DNA from: Acidobacteriota bacterium
GTDB taxonomy: Bacteria > Acidobacteriota > Terriglobia > Bryobacterales > Bryobacteraceae
NCBI GenBank assembly: GCA_003223115.1
Contig: QHXW01000058.1
Location: 1-64,000, forward strand
Reading direction: 5' to 3'
DNA: 64,000 nucleotides
Below the pieces are notes generated by a model. That model was not told where the DNA came from. It ran no database searches and worked only from the letters and a program-made list of their open reading frames with translations. Both the position numbers and the translations under genes were made by a program. Below, in pieces: positions 34,534 to 41,867 of this stretch. Each line of letters opens with the position of its first letter. Positions within the stretch are counted from its first letter, which is position 1.

Positions 34534-37085
34534 TTACTCATCCCTCAGAGCTGTCATCGGGTCGATCTGCGTGGCCCGAACCGCCGGGATCAGGCACGCC
34601 AGGGTTCCCACGGCGACCGGCAAAATAGAGACGCCCGCAATGGTGAGTGGATCGCTTGGGTGCACCTCAAACAGCAGGCTGCTCAGCACTCGTCCTAACC
34701 CCAGCGCCGCGCCGATCCCCACAGCTAATCCCAGCACCACAGGCGTCAATCCCTGCCGCAGCACCATGCGATGCAAATCCCAGGACCGCGCTCCCAAGGG
34801 CATGCGGATTCCGATCTCATTGGTGCGCCGTGCCATGGAGTACGACACCACACCGTAGATTCCCAGGCTGGCCAACAGCAATGCCGCGGCGCCAAAAACC
34901 ACCACCAGCAGCATCTGAAAACGCTGTTGCGCCGCGCCTTTCGCAATCAACGGATCCATAGTTCGAATTTGCGGAATCGCGATACTCGAATCCAGCTTCC
35001 AGATCGCAGACCGGATTGCGCCGCCCGTGGAGCCTGGATTCACGTTGGTCCGGACCAGGAGCGAAACCGTAAAACGCTGGCGATCCCAATACGGGTAGTA
35101 CACAGTCGGCACCGGGCCCTGCTTCAAGCTGGTTCCCACGTCAGAGACAACTCCAATCATTTCGTAAACCTGATCGTCGCCCCGCACGAATCGCTTACTC
35201 ATTGGACTCTGGTGCCTCCACAAGCGCCCGGCCGCCATTTCTGAAAACAGGGCCACGTTTCTGGTGCGGTCGCGCTCCTCGAAGGCACGGCCGTTGCGCA
35301 GTGGAATTCCGGCGGTCTGGAAGTAACTCGGGCCGATGAAGCGCACGTTCACGGTGGGGCGCTCGAGCATCGGCCGGCGGTCGCCTTCGAGCGAGACTAC
35401 GTCAACCCAGGTCCCGCCCTGGAGAGGCAGCGCACACCCGGCAAGTTGCTCGTTGAGGCCAGCAACCCCTGGAAAAAGTGGCTACGTTGCTGGGATTCGC
35501 CGTAGTGGTCGGCCGGCAAACTCAGTTCGACCGTGCTCGTGGTTGAACCCTTTGTTCACTCTCATCAGGCGGACGAAGCTGGTCATCAACAAGCCCGCCA
35601 CAATCTGCAGAACGGCGCTCAATCCCACCTCGAATCCAACCAGAAAGATCGCGGACATCGGTCCCATCGGTTGCTTCGGTAGATGTGCGGCCGCCGGCAC
35701 GAAGCGCGTGTTGCGGATCAGCCGATGTGAACCGCCAGGCCGGTAGAATGCCGAACAGCAGACCAGTCGCCGCGGAAACGAGAGATGCGAATAGCAGGAC
35801 GCGGCCGTCCAGGTGAACTTCATTCAGGCGCGGCAGATCCACGGGCGCGCTCTTGACCAGCAGATTCAGGGCCCACAGCGCGAACACCAGGCCTAGCACC
35901 TAGCGCACCGCCCAGCCAGGCCCGTAGAGCGCTCGCCGTGAGCGCCTGCCTCACCAGGCGGGCGCGGCTTGCTCCCAGCAATCCGTATAGCCGACTCGCG
36001 CACGCGTGCCGTGCTTCTTGCCAGGGAAAGATTCGCCAGATTGACCGAGACAATGAGCAGCACCGCGCCTACGGCGGCTAACAGCACCAGCAGACCCTCG
36101 GCGTACAGCCCGACCATCTGTTCCTGTAAAGGCAGCAGCGCCCGCACGCAGTTCCATCTTTTCGGGCAGGGTCTTGGCGATAGCTGCCTGCACCACGTTC
36201 AATTCGCCAGAGCCTGACCCTGGCTCACGCCCGCTTTAACCCTGGCGATGACGGTGTAGTTGAACTCACTGAGGTTCGAGACATCTTTGAGGTTCAGCCC
36301 CAGCGGCTTGAAAATCTCCGTGCGCGGGCCGAGCGCGAACAAGTGCCCCAGGTGATCGCCTGAAGGAAAGCGGAAATCCGGCGGAAGAATGCCGGCCACG
36401 ACGTGTGCCGCGCCATCGAGTGTGATGGTCTTGCCTACCAGCGCTGGGTCGGCGTTGAAGTGCCGTCGCCATAGCGATTCAGTGATGACCACCACCTGGT
36501 TGCGGCTGGGCTGGTCTTCTTCTTCCATAAACCCGCCACCCAGTCGCGGCTGCACACCAAGCACCTCGAACAAGTTGGCCGACGCGCACACCACGTCAAC
36601 GCGCTCCGGCTCTCCCGCTCCCGTTAGTCCCTTTATCATGGAATCGATGTTTTTTCTGGCAAGATATTTTTCGATAGTGCCGTGTGGCCCTTTATCCATG
36701 CGGGTTTGGTGGCCATTCCAAAAGAATCGGACTTGTATACCCTTTTTTGGTTCCGGCTACGCCGGGTTAGGTTGAGAGTCCGGGAGTCCAGTGCCGCCAT
36801 GCGCTCGAACGAACCGCAGTGCTTTCGCCACTCGGTGAAATGCAGCGCATTGTCGGGCAGCATCGGATAAAGTTGCGCTTATCCTGGAAGGACTTCGGCG
36901 ACGACATAGAGTCGTCCCGGCTCGCGATACTCGAGCGGCTTGAGGAGCACGCTGTTGACGATCGAAAAAATGGCGGTGTTGGCGCCGATACCGAGACCGA
37001 GCGTCAGTACCGCAATGGCCGCGAAACCGCGATCGCACGTCAGGGTCCTGATGGCGTACCGTATGTCACTTGACAAGCTGTTCAA
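34534..37085 (-). pseudogene. ADOP-type permease with insertion, stop and multiple frameshifts
   Basis: The gene starts at 37085 ([20 protein letters not shown] helix) and its last part, from about 35400 to 34534, is an undamaged C-terminal FtsX half ending AVRATQIDPMTALRDE. In between there is an in-frame TAA (LPG-stop-AQLYPMLPDN, near 36893), a 138-bp insertion at 36628-36765, and at least six frame changes (near 36205, 36150, 35990, 35900, 35670 and 35470). The pieces otherwise align without loss as one duplicated orphan permease of about 800 residues. The upstream start has no strong ribosome site. True decay is clear because of the insertion; some small indels may still be read errors. 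Confidence 0.85.
36623..36770. mobile_element. 138-bp insertion flanked by 5-bp direct repeats in the permease gene
   Basis: GTTAG occurs at 36623-36627 and again at 36766-36770, bracketing 138 bases that have no counterpart in the permease family. Deleting the insert and one GTTAG (143 bases) joins NLT to GAGEPERVDVV and returns to the correct frame. The insert is less GC-rich than its surroundings, has no matching terminal inverted repeats, and ends in a small hairpin (CCGGC-TAC-GCCGG). It encodes no protein. It looks like a small non-autonomous element with target duplication. Confidence 0.55.
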
Positions 37086-37439
37086 CGTTTTTCTCCTGCT
37101 TAGACGATGCCGGGATTACGAAGTCGCGCGGCAATAAGTTCATAGGCTCGGAGGCGGATAAGAGGGGCGAAATTTGCCGATTTCGGGCGCACCTACGTGC
37201 GCAATAACGCTAACTGTGCTGATTTCATGGCGTTAACGCCGGTGAGCAAGCTTTTCCTCGAAGCCATTCGACCCCCGAGTCTCGCCATACAACTAACAAA
37301 ACAAGCAGCTTAATTCATTCGCGTAGTACCACGACTGGGGCTTGGACTATACTCGGGAGCACGCCACGAAAACGACGATAACGCTCGTTTTGCAATCCAT
37401 GCTGCGGAAATTCTGTAACCGATAGGAAGGCGAGAGGAT
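37086..37439. other. 354-bp intergenic region before the radical SAM gene
   Basis: No gene or strong hairpin is seen. TATACT at 37348-37353 could be a -10 box but has no good -35 partner. Just before the start, AGGAAGGCGAGAGG (about 37423-37436) is a strong ribosome binding region for the gene at 37440. Confidence 0.35.
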
Positions 37440-39572
37440 ATGCACAAACCGATCAAGTACGCCGAGAAAGCGTTGACCTATGCCGCGGGCGCGGCTTGGC
37501 TCGTTTTCGATAAGCTGAATCAGATCCGCCAAAATCCCTCCTTCACTCCGAAATGGTCAGACAAGCCGTTATTGAAGTCGTATCAGAAGACCAAACCGCC
37601 GCTGGGCTGGCCGCGTGAAACCGATTCGCTGTGCCCCCGCTGCATTCCCGAGATCCGCCAAGAGATTCTCGAAGGCAAGCGTGACTACAAGATTCTGGTC
37701 AACGAGCGGCCCGGCGAAATCAAAGCCAAAGTCATCGAGCGCGCTGGCAAAATCCTGATGGTGAAGGATTGCCCAATCCACGGACACTTTGAAGATGTAA
37801 TGGCCATGGACACCGCGTTTTTCAAGCATCTGGAAGATGTTTTCCCAGGCCGTGACATCCGCGCCCACAGTGATGAGAAGCTCCACAATCACGGCTCGAG
37901 CACGATCAAGCACGGGCGCGGATCAGTTTTGACCATCGATCTCACCAACCGCTGCAACATGATGTGCGATCCGTGTTTTATGGACGCTAATCAGGTTGGA
38001 TTTGTGCATGAGCTGAGTTGGGAAGAGATCAAGACCATGCTCGACAATGCCATTTCAATTAAGCCGAAGCGGCAGATGTCGGTACAGTTCTCTGGCGGCG
38101 AGCCTACGATCTCGCCGCATTTCATGGATGCCGTGAGTTATTCCCGCAAGGTGGGCTATAACAGCGTGCAGGCAGCCACCAACGGCATCGAATTCGCGAA
38201 GAGTTTCGAATTTGCCAAGGCCGCTGCGGACGCGGGCCTGCGCTACGCCTATCTGCAGTTCGACGGCATTGGCAACGCGGCCAACGCCCACCGCAAAGTT
38301 GGCAACCTGTTCGACGTCAAGCTGCGGGCGATCGAGAATCTGCACAAGGCGGGAGTCGAAATTGTTCCAGTCACCACCATTCTGAACGGCATCAACAACG
38401 AGCAGGTAGGCCGCATCATCGAGTTCGCGCTCGATAATCCGAAGAGAATTTCGTTCTGCTCCTTCCAGCCGGTTTCGTTCACAGGCCGCGATGAGGCCAT
38501 TACCGACGAGCGCAGACACGCCCAGCGCTACACGCTGTCGCATTTGGCGCACGACGTAAGAAGCCAGACCGGTATAGGCGAGCCCGCCCGCGACTGGTTC
38601 CCCATTTCGTTCATGAGCACGTTCTCGGATTGGGCCGATCTGGTGCACGGTCCGCAGCACGAATGGGGACAGTTGAGCTGCGGGTGTCATCCCAATTGCG
38701 GTGTGGGCCTGGCGGTGATGATCGACAAGGAGACTAAAGAGCGCGCCGCAGTCACTTCCTTTCTCAATGCCGAACAACTGGCCAAGGACGTGGCACGGGT
38801 CAATGATGCCGCGCGCGGCAAGTTCCTTTCTGTACTGGGCGTAGCGCTTTCACTGTTGCGCAATTACAACCCCTACAATTCGCCCACGCATTTTCGTCTG
38901 GCAGACCTGCTGAAAAAATTCGATAAATGCTTTGGCGCCACGGGTCACAACTACGGCAAAGTTTCGGGTGATCGCACTTACGACGACATCCAGAAGCGCC
39001 GCGCCGACCGCTGGAATTTCTTGTTCGTCGCTGGCATGTGGTTCCAGGACCTGTTCAATTACGATTTCCGCCGCACCGAGCAGTGCATCATCCCCTACGC
39101 CACGCAAGAGGGTGAAATTTCCTTCTGCGCCTACAATACAGGCGTGGGCTGGCGGAATATCGTCGAGAAAATGCACATGACCGCTACGCTCACCAAGTGG
39201 TATGACGAGCGCGGCCGGCATGAGATCTTTGCGGGCGGCAAAGAGGTGCCGCTCAACTCAGTGGAGCACTCGTTGGTCCTAGATGCGGAGGCGGTGGCCG
39301 CGGGCGCTCAGACCGATCTGGATAAATTGGGCATTGCTAAAAACGCTCGTGAGGAGAAAATCCGCGCGCGCAACGAAAAATTGCGGCAGCAGGCTCAGAA
39401 TGACGAGCGCATGATGAAGCTGTACCGCGAGGTGGTGCTCAAAGAGAAAGTAGACGATGCCGGGTTCGTGCCACTGGACGGAATCGTCGGTCTGAAGCCC
39501 GCGACACCCACCAAACCGGCTGAAACCCGCGCGGTAGAAACGCGCGAGGAGGTCGGGTCGTTCGGCGATTAA
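37440..39572 (+). CDS. Radical SAM enzyme, MJ0619/Tes-like (possible membrane-spanning lipid synthase)
   Basis: The 710-residue protein has a rubredoxin-like N-terminal metal site (LCPRC at 64-68, DCPIHG at 110-115) and the radical SAM cluster motif RCNMMCDPC (Cys172, 176, 179). The barrel contains QFSGGEPT, AATNGIEFA, LQFDG, GINNEQVGRI and FQPVSFTGR, phrases I associate with the MJ0619/Tes group, whose characterised member couples lipid tails into archaeal tetraethers. The second cysteine motif usual in archaeal Tes between the zinc site and the SAM cluster (CPYDCGLC type) is missing; instead a SCGCHPNC motif appears near residue 415. The C-terminal 120 residues are charged and helical. Acidobacteria make iso-diabolic acid and branched tetraether lipids, so such a role is plausible here. 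Confidence 0.8.
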   Translation: MHKPIKYAEKALTYAAGAAWLVFDKLNQIRQNPSFTPKWSDKPLLKSYQKTKPPLGWPRETDSLCPRCIPEIRQEILEGKRDYKILVNERPGEIKAKVIERAGKILMVKDCPIHGHFEDVMAMDTAFFKHLEDVFPGRDIRAHSDEKLHNHGSSTIKHGRGSVLTIDLTNRCNMMCDPCFMDANQVGFVHELSWEEIKTMLDNAISIKPKRQMSVQFSGGEPTISPHFMDAVSYSRKVGYNSVQAATNGIEFAKSFEFAKAAADAGLRYAYLQFDGIGNAANAHRKVGNLFDVKLRAIENLHKAGVEIVPVTTILNGINNEQVGRIIEFALDNPKRISFCSFQPVSFTGRDEAITDERRHAQRYTLSHLAHDVRSQTGIGEPARDWFPISFMSTFSDWADLVHGPQHEWGQLSCGCHPNCGVGLAVMIDKETKERAAVTSFLNAEQLAKDVARVNDAARGKFLSVLGVALSLLRNYNPYNSPTHFRLADLLKKFDKCFGATGHNYGKVSGDRTYDDIQKRRADRWNFLFVAGMWFQDLFNYDFRRTEQCIIPYATQEGEISFCAYNTGVGWRNIVEKMHMTATLTKWYDERGRHEIFAGGKEVPLNSVEHSLVLDAEAVAAGAQTDLDKLGIAKNAREEKIRARNEKLRQQAQNDERMMKLYREVVLKEKVDDAGFVPLDGIVGLKPATPTKPAETRAVETREEVGSFGD

Positions 39573-39619: not shown

Positions 39620-39652
39620 GCCGCCGGAAAAATTCCGGCGGCGTTTCTTTTT
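39620..39652 (+). terminator. Rho-independent terminator after the radical SAM gene
   Basis: A perfect 10-bp stem GCCGCCGGAA/TTCCGGCGGC (39620-39629 with 39633-39642) has a three-base loop AAA and is followed by GTTTCTTTTT. It lies 48 bases behind the radical SAM stop and separates that gene from the next one. It is the clearest intrinsic terminator in the window. Confidence 0.85.
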
Positions 39653-39740
39653 GCGCGCAGCCTCGGCTGGCTAAACGGCTCAAAGGCAGCAAATTCTTAC
39701 GCCTCAATGACGCCGAACGCTGTGAGAGGATTTGAACGCC

Positions 39741-41867
39741 ATGCGAGCGCCTGGCAGGCGGACATTGGCCGCGCCAGCCAGTTCCACCGTAAAAATGGCA
39801 GTCGACGAGTTGTGGGAATTGACACCGTCTGGCGCTGGGCTTAGCCGGCTAAAGAACGCGGTCTGGATCGTCTGGTTAACCGCGGCAGCATCGGCCACCT
39901 TCCCGCTATTTCTGTGGCACGTCCAATATTTCCAACGCCCGGGAACGAAATTCTTAACGCTGCTGCTGATCGCGATCTGCGGCTTGGCTGCGTGGTTTCC
40001 GCTCTACCACCGGCTCCGCCAGCGTGGCCTGTGGCGATACGAACTAGCGGTACTCGCGGGCTTGCCGCTTTTAGCCGGATTGATCTACGAGACACGCGGA
40101 ACTCTGACAACGCTGTGGCTGTTCATCTCGGCCTGCGCGCTGGGGCGTTGGGTTCTCGAGCGCGCTGGCTTGAAGACCTCAAATGGGTTGGAAGAAATCG
40201 TTCTGCCGGCGGGCATTGGGCTGGGACTATTGGCATGCGCGCTGTTCGCTCTGGGTCTTACGGGCGCGTTATACCCCTTGGCCTTTGCATTGCTCCTTAC
40301 CGCGATCTGCCTGATTTTCTTTCGCTGCATTCCGCCTTTGTGGACGGCCATCGGGTCTCTTTACCGCCAGTGGGGCGTCACGGAAGAATTTCGGAGTGGG
40401 CTCGGAACAGTGCTTATAGTTTTCGCAGTGGTGTTCGCCGCGTGCGGTGTCATGGTCATACTTGCGCCGAGCGTGGCGTATGACGTTTTGCGTTATCACC
40501 TGGCCGAGGTCAAGGCCTACAGCGCGCAACATGCCCTTCGCCCGCTGCCTCTCCTCGATGCCAGTTACCGTCCGCAAAACACCGAATTATGGATGACTCT
40601 GGCCTATGCGCTGGGCGGCCAGCCGGCGGCGCAAATGGTCTCGCCGGTCTTTTTCGCTCTCACGCTATTGATGCTGTTCGCGATCGCGCTGCGCACCGGC
40701 GCCGGGACCCTCGGCAGTCTCGCAGGCGCAGTGTTTGCGGGAACCATTCCGTTTCTGCACTGGACCGGCAGTGTCGCCAAGAATGATGTCGTGCTGGCTT
40801 TTTTTCTGCTCGCGCCGCTCTACGCCTATTTGCGATGGCGGGAGACTGGAAATTTTGTCTGGATCCGGCTGGGCGTTTTCTTTCTGGCGATCGCCGCAGG
40901 CATAAAAGAAATCGCCGTGTTCGCCGTGCCGCCATCCGCCGTCTTCTTTGCGCTGGCAGCTTGGAGGCAGCCCCGCCGTTTGCGAGCGTTCGGATCGCTG
41001 GCACTGATCTTTGCCGTGTTCGGTCTGTTCTGGTACGTCTGGGACTTCTCTCTGACCGGCAATCCCGTCTATCCCTGGAGACTCGCGGCAGCCGTCTCAC
41101 CTCACCGTAGGTTGGAATGGGGCGCGGCGACTTTGCGCTACCTGCAACTTCCGTGGCGGATGCATTTCAGCGGGCAACGTTTTTTTGAATCGCTGCTGCC
41201 CAATCCGCTGGGTATCTTCTTTGTATTGTTCGCCCCGGTATGGCTGATGGTTCGCCGGCGCACGGGCGCGATCACTCTGGAACGTACGTGCCTGCTCTTT
41301 ACAGCAGCTTATGTGGCCTACTGGGCGACAATGCTTGCCACACTGCGCTTCGGCATTACACCCATCGTGATCCTCGCGGTGTTTACGGGGGCCAGGTTGG
41401 CGGCGCTCTATCAAAACTCGCCGGCCTGGACGAACCGCGTGTTTCTGGGTGCCTGCGTCTACTGTCTCTGGTTCGCGTTACTGGCGGCGGCGATTGTGGA
41501 GATCAATGCACCGCAATTTCAGTTATTCGCAGGAACGATCGACAAGGCTGGTTATCTGTGCCAGGCGCTGGGCACGTACCCGTCACTGGAATACCTGAAG
41601 ACGCAAGTGGCTCCCGGCGACCGCGTGTTGGGCGTCGAGAATTGCTCCGCGGCCTATGCTCCCGATCCGGCGGCGTTCGACTGTTTCTGGCCACCAGCAT
41701 GGCCAATAAATCGGGCGGAATTGGAAGCGCGCCTGCGGAAACCCCAGTTCCGTTTCCTGATCCTGCCGACCGGGCAGGTGGACGCCGGTACGCCCAAGGG
41801 CTTGGATGACGCTGCGCTACTCTACCGGGACGCGGCGTTTTGTGTGTATCGCTTGGCGGCTAAGTAA
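39741..41867 (+). CDS. Multi-pass membrane protein, GT-C glycosyltransferase-like
   Basis: The ATG at 39741 with AGAGGA ten bases upstream is preferred to a TTG at 39732. The 708 residues hold about 14 membrane helices between residues 35 and 570, followed by a soluble C-terminal part. An acidic loop after an early helix (APSVAYDVLRYHLAEVKAY, about 240) is typical for the catalytic loop of dolichyl- or undecaprenyl-phosphate-sugar-dependent GT-C enzymes. It could move a sugar from a lipid carrier to a surface acceptor. No partner gene is next to it, and the terminator isolates it from the radical SAM gene. Confidence 0.7.
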   Translation: MRAPGRRTLAAPASSTVKMAVDELWELTPSGAGLSRLKNAVWIVWLTAAASATFPLFLWHVQYFQRPGTKFLTLLLIAICGLAAWFPLYHRLRQRGLWRYELAVLAGLPLLAGLIYETRGTLTTLWLFISACALGRWVLERAGLKTSNGLEEIVLPAGIGLGLLACALFALGLTGALYPLAFALLLTAICLIFFRCIPPLWTAIGSLYRQWGVTEEFRSGLGTVLIVFAVVFAACGVMVILAPSVAYDVLRYHLAEVKAYSAQHALRPLPLLDASYRPQNTELWMTLAYALGGQPAAQMVSPVFFALTLLMLFAIALRTGAGTLGSLAGAVFAGTIPFLHWTGSVAKNDVVLAFFLLAPLYAYLRWRETGNFVWIRLGVFFLAIAAGIKEIAVFAVPPSAVFFALAAWRQPRRLRAFGSLALIFAVFGLFWYVWDFSLTGNPVYPWRLAAAVSPHRRLEWGAATLRYLQLPWRMHFSGQRFFESLLPNPLGIFFVLFAPVWLMVRRRTGAITLERTCLLFTAAYVAYWATMLATLRFGITPIVILAVFTGARLAALYQNSPAWTNRVFLGACVYCLWFALLAAAIVEINAPQFQLFAGTIDKAGYLCQALGTYPSLEYLKTQVAPGDRVLGVENCSAAYAPDPAAFDCFWPPAWPINRAELEARLRKPQFRFLILPTGQVDAGTPKGLDDAALLYRDAAFCVYRLAAK

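Follow-up and report, generated by a model that had tools for sequence, protein, structure and literature searches.

A gene in the window (the whole 64,000-nucleotide stretch of DNA analysed here) encodes, judged by its homology, an acidobacterial relative of the archaeal tetraether synthase Tes/GDGT-MAS, and is a good candidate for a maker of acidobacterial membrane-spanning lipids. Its product belongs to a group of bacterial Tes-like proteins, clade A, that has lost the ligands of the N-terminal auxiliary [4Fe-4S] cluster. By analogy with the archaeal enzyme MJ0619, clade A probably joins iso-branched acyl or alkyl tails terminally without this cluster, giving membrane-spanning lipids of the iso-diabolic acid type. 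Iso-diabolic acid is the lipid behind the brGDGT paleothermometers. Its synthase in Acidobacteria is undemonstrated in the available parts of the literature covered, and clade A is a concrete candidate for it, widespread in the producing groups. In the main texts of that literature, as far as accessible, we recognised neither a Tes subgroup devoid of the N-terminal cluster nor a named acidobacterial iso-diabolic acid synthase. New here are the separation of clade A from the other bacterial Tes-like proteins (B), the derived cluster loss in the widespread clade A, the finding that archaea lost the cluster independently, and the distribution data.

Among the NCBIfam models, Tes (NF045702) scored best with 309.8 bits over residues 61-580, outscoring the second model, the TrsS radical SAM (seleno)protein (NF045646, 207.1 bits), to which homology also extends across the full length. 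The scores stayed below the curated cut-off of 450 for Tes and the cut-off of 490 for TrsS, and the shortfall from 450 counts against the reading as a tail-coupling enzyme; the one B protein scored, L089, reached 565 bits, above the Tes cut-off, unlike the window protein. Pfam returned Radical_SAM (70.5 bits) and an N-terminal zinc ribbon, Zn_ribbon_HMPTM. Among solved structures, 7TOL and 7TOM (MJ0619, GDGT-MAS) were far in front, 7TOL matching residues 94-578 with an E-value of 1.5e-58. An AlphaFold model computed from an alignment of 65 Tes-like relatives (mean pLDDT 76.8, pTM 0.77) superposed on 7TOM with Z 47.0 and an rmsd of 2.7 Å over 477 residues, the next entry after 7TOM/7TOL being MoaA at Z 20.1; Foldseek gave E 1.3e-36 for the predicted model. 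Since the model alignment consisted of Tes relatives, this match confirms compatibility of fold, not function, and since the window protein was the sole clade-A sequence in it, the model is poor towards both termini. The radical SAM CX3CX2C motif (C172, C176, C179) and the partial TIM barrel of Tes/GDGT-MAS are both present. The window protein resembles MJ0619 in fold, rubredoxin-type site, radical SAM cluster, the C-terminal auxiliary cluster ligands with their labile Met, and the SAM-contact residues F180 and Q343; it differs, at 30% identity, in lacking the N-terminal auxiliary ligands, in additional N- and C-terminal segments, and in an additional CxC before the first C-terminal cluster ligand.

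Two trees were built, a quick one of 75 proteins and a careful one of 46 proteins rooted on MJ0619, L059 and L060. In the careful tree, clade A and its paralogue A2 formed one branch (support 100/100) nested inside bacterial Tes (100/100), in agreement with the 75-protein tree, and this branch fell in one supported set (100/100) with the full-cluster acidobacterial proteins L044, L045, L157 and L163. Because A and A2 are nested inside full-cluster bacterial Tes, the loss of the N-terminal cluster is derived; the two would have descended from a full-cluster bacterial Tes. A2, about 50% identical to the window protein (49-51% in the alignment, against 54-88% for clade A), lies within the same supported clade and has the same cluster loss and CxCHPxC motif, but forms a separate branch; in the class of G173, many genomes carry it beside A. 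How A, A2 and the L077/L078 lineage branch relative to one another is not firmly resolved, so A minus A2 is not established as a clade. The nearest relatives in the tree are the Tes-like proteins B of Acidobacteria and other bacteria (for example L107, L122 and L163), with 32-37% identity and the same domain order; the 20 sampled acidobacterial B proteins keep all cluster cysteines, whereas clade A is without the N-terminal ones. Homology, tree and predicted fold bear out the preliminary description, which had proposed a Tes/MJ0619-like radical SAM protein of a distinct subgroup: the protein sits inside the bacterial Tes clade, and the contrary outcome named there, a place among radical SAM proteins of established non-lipid function, did not arise.

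The accessible text of Lloyd et al. (2022, PMC9433317) describes four metal sites in MJ0619. Besides the radical SAM cluster these are a rubredoxin-type iron bound by C9, C12, C33 and H36, an N-terminal auxiliary cluster whose ligands are C73, C77, C80 and one His, and a C-terminal auxiliary cluster, with the labile Met439, that adjoins both lipid-binding sites; Q268 binds 5'-deoxyadenosine, and what the other metallocofactors of GDGT-MAS do is called unclear. We use native numbers (PDB chain numbering is native plus 20, as deduced from the cysteine positions), and C338, C455 and C470 of MJ0619 were assigned as C-terminal cluster ligands by alignment, Met439 being the ligand named in the accessible part of PMC9433317. 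The alignment held the window protein, MJ0619 and 95 relatives, namely 63 A, the divergent A copy L061, five A2, 20 B and six others (C); window copies (L001, L062), second gene copies (L100, L103 and two L035 frames) and the A2 fragment L043 were left out of the ligand counts.

Of the four metal sites of MJ0619, clade A has kept the ligands of three (Table 1). C65, C68 and C111 of the rubredoxin-type site occur in 63/63 A sequences and H114 in at least 97% of the 70 A and A2 rows; at the C-terminal cluster, C420 and C549 occur in 63/63 and C563 in 62/63, with one gap. Residues invariant across 66 aligned Tes-like proteins are likewise kept in clade A. The N-terminal cluster cysteines, those of the CPYDCGLC-type motif, are absent from the window protein, from all 63 A sequences, L061 and all five A2, and present in 20/20 acidobacterial B and 6/6 others. 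At the three cysteine columns the window protein has a gap, H151 and S154. H149 and H151 stand in the place of CxxxCxxC in 70/70 A and A2 rows and S154 in 69/70, and residues 151-180 around the lost cluster are highly conserved (mean identity 0.91 to the window protein). We rejected low pLDDT as evidence for the loss: residues 141-160 have a mean of 45-54, but the same loop in the control L163, where the cysteines are present, is also low (64-65).

The first-ligand region of the C-terminal cluster is marked by H417, which aligns with MJ0619 H335, and by C420, which aligns with C338. SCGCHPNC thus belongs to the ordinary C-terminal cluster region and differs only by the additional C414 and C416, C414 being found in 63/63 A versus 5/20 B and C416 in 62/63 A versus 13/20 B. 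The preliminary description had correctly noted the missing CPYDCGLC-type motif, the N-terminal metal site (of rubredoxin/zinc type, C65xxC68 and C111xxH114) and the motifs QFSGGEPT, LQFDG and FQPVSFTGR, all found as quoted, but its view of SCGCHPNC as a different motif does not hold; of the different cluster set it envisaged, the missing N-terminal auxiliary ligands stand, while the C-terminal ligands proved conserved. The predicted N-terminal helix (residues 3-30) makes a membrane contact possible.

Table 1. Features of the clade-A gene and its product in the window.
Feature	Position	Strand	Basis or remark
Purine-rich ribosome-binding stretch AGGAAGGCGAGAGG	37424..37437	+	read from sequence, no score
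Clade-A Tes-family radical SAM protein, 710 aa	37440..39572	+	ORF, homology, alignment, tree
N-terminal helix, residues 3-30, moderately amphipathic	37446..37529	+	predicted, low pLDDT about 46-63
C65xxC68, rubredoxin/zinc-type site, first half	37632..37643	+	Pfam, alignment
C111xxH114, rubredoxin/zinc-type site, second half (MJ0619 C33xxH36)	37770..37781	+	alignment
Residues 140-160, place of lost N-terminal auxiliary cluster	37857..37919	+	alignment; low model confidence
Radical SAM cluster motif C172xxxC176xxC179	37953..37976	+	alignment
QFSGGEPT, residues 216-223	38085..38108	+	translation
LQFDG, residues 272-276	38253..38267	+	translation
FQPVSFTGR, residues 342-350	38463..38489	+	alignment; Q343 = MJ0619 Q268
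C414-G-C416-H-P-N-C420	38679..38699	+	C420 aligns with MJ0619 C338; C414, C416 extra
M533, counterpart of labile ligand Met439	39036..39038	+	alignment; at least 97% of 70 A and A2 rows
C549, C-terminal cluster ligand (MJ0619 C455)	39084..39086	+	alignment
C563, C-terminal cluster ligand (MJ0619 C470)	39126..39128	+	alignment
Clade-A C-terminal extension, residues 600-710, poorly conserved	39237..39569	+	alignment, model
Intrinsic terminator, 10-pair stem then GTTTCTTTTT	39620..39652	+	pattern scan, folding

In several relatives the clade-A frame is split near residue 178, and we considered and rejected the idea that the radical SAM motif is the site of an insertion or a programmed frameshift. 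Among seven stretches examined, three (L196, L197, L198) have N at the split, two (L199, L200) can be read without a break as far as the following motif, and in the last two (L194, L195) no motif was matched; we take the splits as assembly gaps within a very conserved stretch.

All three N-terminal cluster cysteines occur in 71 of the 80 named Tes-like loci listed. The remaining nine comprise a damaged frame (L129) and eight archaeal loci, six titled Methanomassiliicoccales, Methanomassiliicoccaceae or Methanomethylophilaceae, one Euryarchaeota (L160) and one Thermoplasmatales (L180), in which cysteine-free sequence replaces the cluster stretch. A tree built minus the N-terminal cluster columns with seven of the eight (L180 was omitted for length) required two independent losses, and the archaeal proteins lacking the cluster nested inside ordinary archaeal Tes. 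This second, independent loss supports dispensability of the N-terminal cluster. The Methanomassiliicoccus protein L135 keeps the cysteines, and Methanomassiliicoccus luminyensis is given as a species with tetraethers in the accessible part of PMC10673518; a report on the lipids of the archaeal lineage that lacks the cluster was not found in the literature covered. Clade A and the archaeal branch amount to two natural deletions of one GDGT-MAS metallocofactor, so that its role is directly testable.

If the chemistry follows that of MJ0619, the SAM cluster (C172, C176, C179) would generate a 5'-deoxyadenosyl radical, which would abstract a hydrogen from the methyl group at the end of one tail. 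The carbon left there would stay bound to a sulfur of the C-terminal [4Fe-4S] cluster (C420, C549, C563 and the labile M533) until a second radical couples to that carbon. The N-terminal auxiliary cluster, lost in clade A, would be dispensable for this coupling. The stem of A and A2 is long, however (1.18 changes per column in the 46-protein tree), which also fits a change of function, and many residues conserved in A and A2 are rare in B, among them H149, H151, H190, H284, D351-E352, C414, W534 and W571. Together with the lost cluster, these would suit a new radical chemistry such as tail methylation or desaturation; we hold this to be quite improbable, as clade A retains the Tes-wide invariant residues and every ligand of the C-terminal cluster, the labile Met among them, and the archaeal proteins with the same loss nest inside ordinary archaeal Tes. 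A bolder form of the coupling reading, which we regard as conceivable but rather doubtful, makes clade A the general acidobacterial iso-diabolic acid synthase, a re-engineered Tes in which a conserved HxHG segment, perhaps binding another metal or making a protein contact, replaces the N-terminal cluster and the CxC alters the fourth ligand of the C-terminal cluster, permitting ester-lipid coupling in aerobic soil bacteria. If this were true, then, with the archaeal loss, sp3-sp3 coupling of tails would need the SAM and C-terminal clusters alone, perhaps along with the rubredoxin-type site.

With the window protein as query, matches were found in 163/297 genomes of a phylum sample at E <= 1e-30, a count that pools A, A2 and B with a small number of other proteins. 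The window's family (Bryobacterales) had a match in 164/170 genomes at E <= 1e-40; in 155 of the 170 the best E was 1e-100 or lower, and nine had weaker matches only, two of which (G448, G485) could hold A fragments, so that clade A is present in 155-157/170. A or A2 occurred in 102/104 genomes of the class of G173, which we take to be that of Chloracidobacterium thermophilum (subdivision 4), and in 91/126 of the class of G175, presumably that of Luteitalea pratensis (subdivision 6), our pairing of subdivisions with classes being itself an assumption. The 35/126 genomes of the latter class without a match at E <= 1e-60 speak against clade A as the maker of iso-diabolic-acid-type lipids. The same query, successful in these two classes, matched 0/63 genomes in the class of G086, probably Holophagae (subdivision 8). 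In the phylum sample, all 33 genomes listed of family f8, which is probably Acidobacteriaceae (subdivision 1), matched, and no f8 genome was among the 20 listed of the 134 non-matching genomes. Outside named Acidobacteria, no clade-A protein appeared in a small selected set of 20 Tes-bearing genomes, 19 titled as other groups and one merely as 'bacterium' (L146), the best score being 296 bits; in viral contigs seven stretches fitted a pattern and encoded no relative.

Iso-diabolic acid is reported from subdivisions 1, 3, 4 and 6 in a survey of seven, in the available part of PMC13274423, and the clade-A distribution parallels this occurrence at class level only, some class names being inferred. 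The Bacillota membrane-spanning lipid synthase Mss, which by description in the accessible text has iso-diabolic acid as its product and shares the catalytic architecture of Tes (PMC13274423), might instead make the acidobacterial compound and leave clade A another lipid role. The available parts of PMC13274423 and PMC11868695 do describe Mss as the fatty-acid-coupling enzyme of bacteria, and the latter gives matches in 11/97 acidobacterial Black Sea MAGs; Tes matches, at 17/97 in the same MAGs (PMC11868695), are no rarer, and in the soil-type families examined clade A occurs much more widely, so we give an Mss origin little credit.

Acidobacterial Tes homologues are already candidates for brGDGT synthesis (PMC8941075), and membrane-spanning lipid synthesis by bacterial homologues is described as not experimentally confirmed (PMC11868695), in the accessible portions of both. 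Edaphobacter aggregans, a producer of iso-diabolic acid and brGDGTs in the available part of PMC13274423, has one Tes homologue with 32% identity to the archaeal Tes MA_1486, and Solibacter and Koribacter have homologues at 40-42%, according to the accessible text of Zeng et al. (2022, PMC8941075). In our comparison, seven A and A2 sequences were 30-33% identical to MJ0619 and B proteins 37-45%. On identity alone, the Edaphobacter homologue fits clade A and those of Solibacter and Koribacter may be read as B.

Clade A might, alternatively, couple tails only once they are ether-linked, making brGDGTs from iso-C15 diethers, with another enzyme producing the iso-diabolic acid esters. In the accessible text of PMC10087280, Solibacter usitatus makes iso-C15 mono- and diethers, brGDGTs and brGTGTs, has no detectable iso-diabolic acid despite two Tes homologues, and is proposed to condense diethers by one or both of them; this also counts against our preferred reading. 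A Candidatus Solibacter MAG encodes both B and A (82% over residues 1-544, where the contig ends), so the presence of A alone does not predict free iso-diabolic acid. If clade A makes it in Solibacter, the product must be consumed, or A must act on ethers. The window's genome also has one BcrAD/BadFG-DUF2229 fusion (contig C115), which belongs to a broad type with PlsA/Ger-like ether-lipid enzymes among its members, but this match is non-specific, TIGR00241 scoring below its cut-off and no specific model being reached. Further against the ether reading, clade A is in every f8 genome listed, and in Occallatibacter bavaricus, of the order of f8, iso-diabolic acid is the main fatty acid (49.2%) in the accessible part of PMC12935467; brGDGTs are detected in few acidobacterial species in that of PMC13274423. 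We consider restriction to ether-linked tails unlikely and terminal joining of iso-branched tails the better account.

B is patchy in the window's family (35/170 genomes) and commoner without A (9/15) than with A (26/155; Fisher p 0.0005, kinship ignored). When the two doubtful genomes were moved, the conservative comparison was 7/13 versus 28/157 (p 0.006), and a smaller, overlapping sample gave 4/6 versus 7/31 (p 0.051). In the window's genome, a B query at E <= 1e-60 matched solely the clade-A protein itself and no B copy. In three genomes, G312 (L081, L204), G431 and G423, A immediately precedes B and both genes share a strand, the last pair being taken from coordinates with its B frame overlapped by an antisense ORF. 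Within the family this arrangement holds for 2/24 genomes with both genes placed on contigs, two further genomes with both genes being unlisted, and the adjacency suggests related roles. G312 belongs to a family other than the window's.

The reading frame (710 aa) was confirmed, as was the preliminary description's single-gene unit: the window shares no neighbour with four other loci of the gene (15-17 kb each), so the clade-A gene is solitary in the window. A conserved operon was rejected, with A-B as the sole recurring pair. A purine-rich stretch, read from the sequence, does precede the start codon, where a strong ribosome site had been claimed. The gene's own terminator is supported by folding, with a z of -3.07 and an equally good structure in 1/200 shuffles, while the pattern scan by itself (five matches versus a mean of 4.0 in shuffles) is hardly above chance.

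The clade-A gene, encoding a Tes-family radical SAM protein that lacks the cysteines of the N-terminal auxiliary cluster, is followed directly by a co-directional gene of group B, the acidobacterial Tes-like proteins retaining all cluster cysteines, in three genomes from two families (see table). Alongside clade A, many genomes from the G173 class, which we take to be Chloracidobacterium, carry a second copy, A2, with about 50% identity to it.

Loci of clade-A-related genes and of a candidate ether-lipid gene
Feature	Locus	Coordinates	Remark
A-then-B pair	L203	2986-7119	both genes same strand
A-then-B pair	L081	1821-6001	both genes same strand
A-then-B pair	G423:C84	55682-59577	both genes same strand
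A2	L042, L079, L080, L098, L099		
BcrAD/BadFG-DUF2229 activase fusion	L201 (G000:C115)	35796-36485	window's genome

Among the matches listed, all three cysteines of the N-terminal auxiliary cluster were also absent from eight archaeal Tes-like proteins (L151, L152, L156, L160, L162, L169, L180 and L181), six of them titled Methanomassiliicoccales or its families. The tree, in which seven of these eight loci were tested, indicates that the archaeal loss is a separate event from that in clade A. Some Acidobacteria hold another Tes/TrsS-related family (L085, L086, L087 and L092); the two members scored, L085 and L092, reached 278-318 bits against the Tes and TrsS models, below both cut-offs.

In some metagenome assemblies (L196, L197 and L198), clade A carries assembly gaps (N) inside its conserved radical SAM stretch, which may be mistaken for frameshifts.

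Analysis of the neighbouring genes revealed that the downstream ORF (39732-41867, + strand, 711 residues) has no Pfam match at E ≤ 1e-5. Upstream, at 34537-36699 on the minus strand, a pair of short reading frames with matches to MacB_PCD or FtsX domains sits amid several broken frames; this stretch looks like decayed MacB-type permease genes. Elsewhere in the window's genome, the activase fusion is a possible ether-lipid enzyme of the PlsA/Ger type.
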